Assembly: GCA_028702695.1 (NCBI GenBank)
Contig: JAQVOH010000002.1
Span: 1-45,559 of the forward strand
Direction of reading: 5' to 3'
DNA length: 45,559 bases
Source of the DNA: Desulfotomaculaceae bacterium
GTDB taxonomy: Bacteria; Bacillota; Desulfotomaculia; Desulfotomaculales; Pelotomaculaceae
Numbering within the stretch: position 1 is the stretch's first letter; each line of letters begins with the position of its first letter. Shown here in pieces: positions 44,666 through 45,559 of this stretch. Both the position numbers and the translations under genes were made by a program. The notes beneath the pieces are model-generated. The model did not search any database and had not been told where the DNA came from. It saw only the letters and a program-made list of their open reading frames with translations.

Positions 44666-45064
44666 TTAACTGCAACTTTCACACCCACAGTCGTGGTCAG
44701 TCTGGCATTCGCCTTCACAGCCACATCCTTGACTCATACCAATAGACTCACTAATGATTTTATTAACCTGATCAAGGATATTCTCAAAACTTTCCTGGGC
44801 CTTGAAGAAATTAGTTATATGGGTATTATCAAACATTCTTCTCTGGAATTCCCCAAATTCCCTTTGCAGGGATTCGGAAAGAGGCAGTCCCTGGGCTTGC
44901 ATGTCCTGCAAGGCATGCTGCTTAGCTTGGAATTCACTGATGATAATTTGAGCTTCGGGATTCTGCATCATCATGGTTTCCGCTTCCCGCACATTGCTAA
45001 ATTCTTTTGACTTTGATAATTCAAGACCTAGTTCCCGGGCCTTATTTAGTATCGATTCCGACAT
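44666..45064 (-). CDS. ricA: YlbF/YmcA family protein, RicA-like, with cysteine-rich tail
   Basis: A 132-residue helical protein (ILNKARELGLELSKSKEFSN, AQIIISEFQAKQHALQDMQA) of the YlbF/YmcA family. The C-terminal tail CGCEGECQTDHDCGCESCS has six cysteines and one histidine. In B. subtilis, RicA, RicF and RicT form a complex with [4Fe-4S] clusters that affects RNase Y processing and sporulation or biofilm phosphorelay; the tail here fits cluster binding. ymcA (ricA) lies next to miaB and close to mutS in Bacillus too, which supports RicA rather than RicF. Start ATG 45064 is preferred since GAGGTG precedes it; the GTG at 45073 is inside that site. Confidence 0.8.
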   Translation of the reverse strand: MSESILNKARELGLELSKSKEFSNVREAETMMMQNPEAQIIISEFQAKQHALQDMQAQGLPLSESLQREFGEFQRRMFDNTHITNFFKAQESFENILDQVNKIISESIGMSQGCGCEGECQTDHDCGCESCS

Positions 45065-45084: not shown

Positions 45085-45122
45085 AATCTAAATAAATTAA
45101 TTAAATTAATTTTATTTAGATT
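45085..45122. repeat. AT-rich long inverted repeat just upstream of the ricA-like gene
   Basis: AATCTAAATAAATTAAT (45085-45101) faces a near-identical inverted arm at 45105-45122, with one extra base in the right arm. Almost all A/T, it would form a weak long hairpin in the leader of the ricA-like gene, about 20 bases before its start codon. Confidence 0.6.
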
Positions 45123-45124
45123 TT

Positions 45125-45306
45125 CTCCTGATGACTAAACAGGAGGCAGTGTCACAGATTTCAACTTCTTAGCCATAAGCTTACACTTATGTACCGGTTG
45201 GTCTTCCTTACGGAATCCCAACACCAGCTTTTAAGCCGCGTGTTCTTGCCCGGAAGGGGGTATTACCCACCACCTTAGTTGTTCTGGCCTCTGCGCCGAC
45301 TTTCAC
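45125..45306 (-). ncRNA. probable structured RNA region between miaB and ricA (class unknown)
   Basis: Several hairpins line up on the minus strand: AAGG...CCTT around GGGT-AAT-ACCC (about 45260-45283); GTTGG-GA-TTCC-GTAA-GGAA-GA-CCAAC (45197-45222); CATAAG-TGTAAG-CTTATG (45174-45191); CTCCTG/CAGGAG (45125-45145). The second has a GNRA tetraloop (GUAA) and tandem G-A pairs only when read on the minus strand, which argues that RNA is made from that strand. A 32-codon frame (GTG 45306 to TAA 45208, VKVGAEARTTKVVGNTPF...) also runs through it, so a small peptide cannot be excluded. No known riboswitch consensus was recognised. Confidence 0.4.
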
Positions 45307-45365
45307 CGATTGTCTCTATCGACGCATCATTGGATGTAACTGCAAAGAAACTTTTATCCTTTCAT

Positions 45366-45559
45366 TTAATTTTTTAATGAACCCTCGAGGTAAGCCAGGT
45401 GAGCCCTGGTAATGGTTACATGTGCAGTGGAGCCTATGAGTGTTTTATCCCCTGGAAAAACAACCGTTTTATATCCTCTGGACTTGCCATACACAAGGCC
45501 GGAGGCGTTGTTTCTTTCTCCTTCGACCAGGACTTCCTGCCATGAACCTTCCTCTGCCT
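45366..45559 (-). CDS. miaB: tRNA-2-methylthio-N6-dimethylallyladenosine synthase, C-terminal part
   Basis: The last 63 residues of a protein whose 5' part lies beyond the window edge. The visible part is a TRAM domain: EVLVEGERNNASGLVYGKSR, then TVVFPGDKTLIGSTAHVTIT and RAHLAYLEGS, the usual end of radical-SAM methylthiotransferases. The stop TAA is at 45366-45368. MiaB rather than MtaB or RimO is inferred from the adjacent ricA-like and mutS genes, the same neighbourhood as ymcB-ymcA-mutS in Bacillus. The enzyme adds a methylthio group to the base made by MiaA. Confidence 0.85.
   Translation of the reverse strand, partial: AEEGSWQEVLVEGERNNASGLVYGKSRGYKTVVFPGDKTLIGSTAHVTITRAHLAYLEGSLKN

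Follow-up and report, generated by a model that had tools for sequence, protein, structure and literature searches.

The miaB-ricA interval

At one end of the window, by which is meant the whole 45,559-nucleotide stretch of DNA analysed here, the 3' end of miaB (a partial open frame at 45366-45557) and a ricA/ymcA-like gene (Com_YlbF; 44666-45064; PF06133, 88.5 bits) lie on the minus strand, and the interval separating them is occupied by a structured RNA of the same strand. The initial annotation had called such an RNA, and folding of 45085-45365 bears this out: the minus-strand fold reaches -84.4 kcal/mol (z -4.4), with none of 200 shuffled sequences equally good, and the strand assignment holds with the AT-rich palindrome left out, the remaining core scoring z -2.5 on the minus strand versus z -1.2 on the plus strand. 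The hairpin GTTGG-GA-TTCC-GTAA-GGAA-GA-CCAAC is present as reported (45222-45197, minus strand), with its tandem G-A pairs and GUAA loop, and can be aligned with GNRA-loop counterparts in other copies of the RNA, such as GGCGG-UGA-GCC-GCAA-GGU-GAU-CCACC (L009, L044 and L078).

The RNA is, however, bigger than first described. In a consensus fold of 87 pairs, obtained from 12 other copies, it forms a single closed structure from 45359 to 45074, in which helix P1 pairs AGUUUCU (45352-45346) with AGAAACG (45082-45076, adjoining the insertion junction) and so closes the whole RNA, whilst helix P2 pairs GCAGU (45343-45339) with ACUGC (45150-45146). Enclosed by these are the hairpin CAUAAGU/GCUUAUG (45191-45174), a further hairpin CUCCUG...CAGGAG (45145-45125) and an AT-rich terminal hairpin (45123-45083), found both by folding and in the consensus. 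This last is the inverted repeat of the initial annotation, which had placed it after the RNA as a feature apart; the repeat is real, but since P1 encloses it, it belongs to the same RNA. At its 3' end the RNA reaches into the Shine-Dalgarno sequence of ricA (junction 45074|45073; ATG at 45064-45062).

Searches of Rfam at both gathering and E-value thresholds returned no credible family for the window RNA or the tested copies, and the sub-threshold matches (STnc490, SNORA28, mycoplasma_FSE) did not recur between copies. Cobalamin riboswitches, T-boxes and HEARO RNAs had been suggested by motifs and were set aside, having no model match. A coding role for the 32-codon frame at 45306-45208 was likewise rejected: homologues vary there by indels of diverse length, as seen in the alignment, which was not scored as a coding test.

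A dispersed RNA family at the right end of IS607-type elements

Searching for the same sequence elsewhere, as had been proposed, yielded more than 80 copies in the window's own genome and its relatives. Further copies lie on contigs C46 (two) and C16 of the same assembly, and many more in related genomes; when named genomes were scanned for a conserved pattern of 23 bases, 35 stretches matched, in Pelotomaculum, Desulfoscipio, Desulforamulus, Desulfotruncus, Thermincola, Peptococcaceae and further Firmicutes assemblies. Eighteen copies, the window sequence not among them, were used to build a covariance model of the 3' domain; within the family it matches 20 of 25 genomes and within the class 34 of 113, and it finds the window copy at 45275-45124 with 98 bits (E 3.5e-30). 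Covariation was among the checks proposed for homologues, and compensatory changes are indeed present in the family model: 11 of its 32 pairs have changes on both sides, and in the best covarying helix, the hairpin at 45174-45191, six of seven pairs show compensatory types, with both sides changed in up to seven of 18 sequences. The pre-ricA RNA thus belongs to an element dispersed through Desulfotomaculia, of which it is one copy. Genome G047 alone carries a dozen near-identical copies with a sharp right end, ...GAAACCAG|G, where the RNA follows closely on a TnpB-like gene; the same sharp end is seen at more than 80 junctions. Some copies are very short (L046, L129, L163), consisting of just the outer helices and the right end, and still stand directly before a gene start. 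In five copies from Pelotomaculum propionicicum (L052-L055 and L080), one hairpin loop of the RNA is interrupted by a second, palindromic insert some 100 nt long, CCCAGCACTCAACCTA...GGTTGAGTGTTGGG, which occurs in either orientation, so that one element is nested within another.

Full-length copies reveal the context of the RNA. It begins some 75 nt after the end of a divergent tnpB gene (72-86 nt from the tnpB stop or match to the start of the RNA model in six copies), behind the gene of an IS607 serine transposase, and extends to the right end of the element. The transposase of L043 is complete, with Resolvase and MerR domains (NF033518, 199.6 bits; cut-off 110); in L067 the transposase upstream is truncated and the RNA lies just past the TnpB-like gene. 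The TnpB proteins exceed the TIGR01766 cut-off of 32 in two of three cases (32.3 and 36.3) and score 46-60 bits with NF040570, below its cut-off of 100; on these matches the protein is probably a divergent TnpB. No solved structure was matched by sequence, an hhalign comparison with IS605 TnpB gave no signal from what was too shallow an alignment, and an AlphaFold model from an alignment of only three sequences (pLDDT 39) was not used. Four of the proteins (L043, L056, L067, L080) are without the usual C-terminal zinc-finger cysteines and carry HEAAxYxIARR close to where the third RuvC motif usually lies, and the active site may be rearranged.

By analogy with described systems, place and form of the RNA are those of a TnpB omega RNA (reRNA) for which the flanking DNA would serve as guide. 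The RAGATH-18-derived reRNAs of Firmicutes IS607 TnpBs, those of ISFba1 and its relatives (PMC11061315), are likewise structured, lie at the IS607 right end just after tnpB, and share with the present family a variable 3' flank as guide and an AG-rich TAM; their scaffold is 187 nt long, against about 285 nt here, and their TnpB has 387 aa, against about 485 aa of divergent sequence. RAGATH-18 was not among the Rfam matches of three copies up to E 10, although the Rfam copy searched was perhaps without that model. The reRNA of ISXfa1 (PMC10711439) has in common with the family the IS607 element, the GG crossover and a fixed G after the right end that is taken into the RNA scaffold, but its TAM is GGG, its RNA has a different sequence and it comes from another group of hosts. 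IS607 of Helicobacter pylori (PMC6188088) shares the serine transposase with a MerR-type DNA-binding domain and the insertion at GG without target duplication, whereas its target preference is only (G)GG and that of the family is GGAG|G near start codons. The initial claim of a new structured RNA is therefore borne out in part: the family is uncatalogued, without a match in Rfam, but its kind, a TnpB omega RNA at an IS607 end, is known.

Many copies in G002, G005, G013 and G017 are small forms with neither gene. Their left end comprises a -35 box, a LexA-type box, a -10 box, a Shine-Dalgarno sequence, a start codon and a few codons, after which the RNA follows; in L044, a full copy, the start codon so placed belongs to tnpA. 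The LexA-type box CGAACACCTGTTC lies between -35 and -10 in the left ends L040, L041 and L047-L054. LexA control of the small forms appears likely, because the same box, CGAAC-N4-GTTC, also precedes recA (L248, L249) and ruvC (L235); the box pattern by itself is not enriched in the genomes examined. A transposon under SOS control would also put the genes downstream of it under SOS control. Solo omega RNAs and small non-autonomous transposon derivatives, which have a guide-RNA end and no nuclease gene, occur dispersed in genomes. The small form differs from these in keeping a LexA-box promoter and sitting in Shine-Dalgarno sequences, and the window copy differs in having lost even the promoter-bearing left part. 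The nearly complete genome G013 (99%) holds at least five well-kept small copies (L047-L051) and no matching tnpB was found in it: either the gene was lost recently or the partner was not recognised.

Insertion into ribosome-binding sites

Directly 3' of the fixed right end the flank is variable (81 junctions). In 68 of 81 distinct copies, some of them orthologous and hence not independent, the junction is followed within 4-18 nt by the start codon of an open frame, compared with 19-20% of random GG sites, 24% of GGAGG sites and 33% of AGGAGG sites. Judged by their start sequences, the genes behind the copies include rpmB, rpmF, pyrG, gltX, hisC, hisIE, rplI, thiC, rtcB and livH. The left flank is GGAG in 24 of 35 cases (AGGAG in 13), versus 1.6% of GG sites, and several of the remaining 11 are poorly resolved left ends. 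When the two flanks are joined, uninterrupted GGAG|G sites result, i.e. the element inserts at GG without target duplication.

Active IS607 TnpBs of Firmicutes have been reported to use the TAM 5'-AGGAG in 18 of 22 strains (PMC11061315). The left flanks seen here agree with that TAM, and the motif is at the same time the core of the Shine-Dalgarno sequence, a coincidence of which no earlier mention was found in the open-access literature searched. The simplest reading would be that the transposase needs GG, and that TnpB keeps the element where a TAM is present; as AGGAG is also the Shine-Dalgarno core, copies come to sit in the ribosome-binding sites of housekeeping genes. Such insertions would be tolerated because the end of the element, ...AG|G, rebuilds the Shine-Dalgarno sequence. 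That copies occupy and rebuild housekeeping ribosome-binding sites in this way is perhaps unexpected even for specialists, and the role of the TAM in where such elements survive becomes testable from genome sequence.

A different view can be taken of the small copies. Bearing an SOS-type promoter, the start of a host gene and the guide RNA but no protein, they might be working solo guides which, the GGAG TAM being a Shine-Dalgarno sequence, would be directed systematically against the translation starts of housekeeping genes, with the host retaining some of them, the pre-ricA copy included, for regulation or to protect the site. This reading we consider unlikely.

Origin and present state of the pre-ricA copy

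At the window locus the junction lies between 45074 and 45073, where the element ends in CGAG (family consensus CCAG) and the host sequence GTGAGAAACATG follows. Relatives without the RNA have empty pre-ricA sites such as CAGGAG|GTGAAAAAATG (L207, L208), with miaB directly upstream, and all three genomes of the window's genus are occupied, reading CGAG|GTGAGAAACATG in the window and CGAG|GTGAAAACATG and CTAG|GTGAAAACATG in the others. The ricA Shine-Dalgarno sequence GAGGTG (45076-45071) is accordingly composite, three bases being contributed by the element and three by the host. No left end was found between miaB and the RNA with a left-end model, and the RNA starts right after miaB; the copy is a fragment with its left end missing. 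Decay is evident in its fold also: 65 of the 87 consensus pairs are kept in the window (21 are broken), 59 in G002 and 57 in G001, and both of these orthologues are without the GNRA/tandem G-A hairpin. Among the twelve copies from which the consensus was derived, a derivation that favours them, nine keep 80-86 pairs and three more diverged ones keep 66-69.

The pre-ricA RNA is thus very probably the right-end RNA, of the omega RNA or reRNA type, of an IS607-type transposon, in a truncated copy unable to move. One possibility offered in the initial annotation, that a non-autonomous RNA element had become inserted between miaB and ricA, is supported in detail by this identification. The element would have inserted by a G|G crossover into the ricA Shine-Dalgarno sequence, between GGAG and G and without target duplication; the right junction is evident from the empty sites, and the left one is placed by reference to other copies. 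It would then have lost its left part, where tnpA has its promoter and start, so that the RNA part remained between the two genes; the three orthologous copies suggest that this happened in the genus ancestor. In active elements, to judge by published studies of IS607 TnpBs, the RNA would bind TnpB, with the DNA to its right as guide and GGAG or AGGAG to its left as TAM, and TnpB would cut empty sites, whereby the element is kept. The window copy has most likely been inherited as a remnant and tolerated because GAGGTG, the ribosome-binding site that its end helps to rebuild, presumably leaves ricA translatable; today it would be carried passively in the ricA leader, on a transcript shared with miaB, its structure decaying.

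The other possibility initially offered, a leader that regulates ricA, fares poorly. As a cis-acting riboswitch- or thermometer-like leader, the RNA would have been retained so that P1 could mask or expose the Shine-Dalgarno sequence, and the 3' strand of P1 (45082-45076) does adjoin and slightly overlap GAGGTG. The RNA has been kept before ricA in three genomes of the genus, and the window copy, which still scores 98 bits and retains more pairs than its orthologues, may have some use. However, the same RNA stands before many unrelated genes, with no conserved link to one gene or pathway; ricA of other genera is without it; and the orthologues lose pairs, including those of the GNRA/tandem G-A hairpin. 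The RNA probably does not regulate ricA, and its retention as such a leader we regard as quite unlikely.

Another view is that the window RNA still works as a solo guide, with TnpB supplied in trans. Such a tnpB is present in G001, G002 and G005, and small copies without tnpB can be near-perfect in structure, as in G013 (82-86 of 87 pairs), where none was seen. Against this, no IS607-type tnpB was found in the window's genome (94.6% complete in 186 contigs, so that one could be missed), 21 of the 87 consensus pairs are broken in the window copy, and the would-be guide, the roughly 20 nt after the right-flank G (45072-45053, assigned by analogy with IS607 reRNAs; PMC10711439), covers the ricA translation start and matches its own locus only. 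A trans-acting role is therefore very improbable. The sole NF040570 match in that genome (L233, contig C100) was rejected as a partner: it is an apparently intact IS200/IS605 element with a Y1 transposase and a zinc-finger TnpB, unrelated to the RNA. Least credible of all is a self-splicing, intron-like or IStron RNA whose excision restores a split Shine-Dalgarno sequence, for although insertions fall in the Shine-Dalgarno sequences of housekeeping genes and P1 brings the two ends of the fold together, Rfam gives no match to group I or group II introns, tolerance is accounted for by the rebuilt AG|G, which makes splicing unnecessary, and the RNA agrees with IS607 reRNAs in its position, its size and its variable 3' flank (PMC10711439, PMC11061315).

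Read as a truncated IS607-type right end, a puzzling leader RNA becomes an identifiable transposon insertion, and the family adds an uncatalogued, probable omega RNA with its covariance model, tied to a divergent TnpB branch of Desulfotomaculia. All three genomes of the genus share another old insertion next to a gene start: an orthologous remnant with few helices left (L039, L045, L130) lies upstream of a livH-like permease gene.
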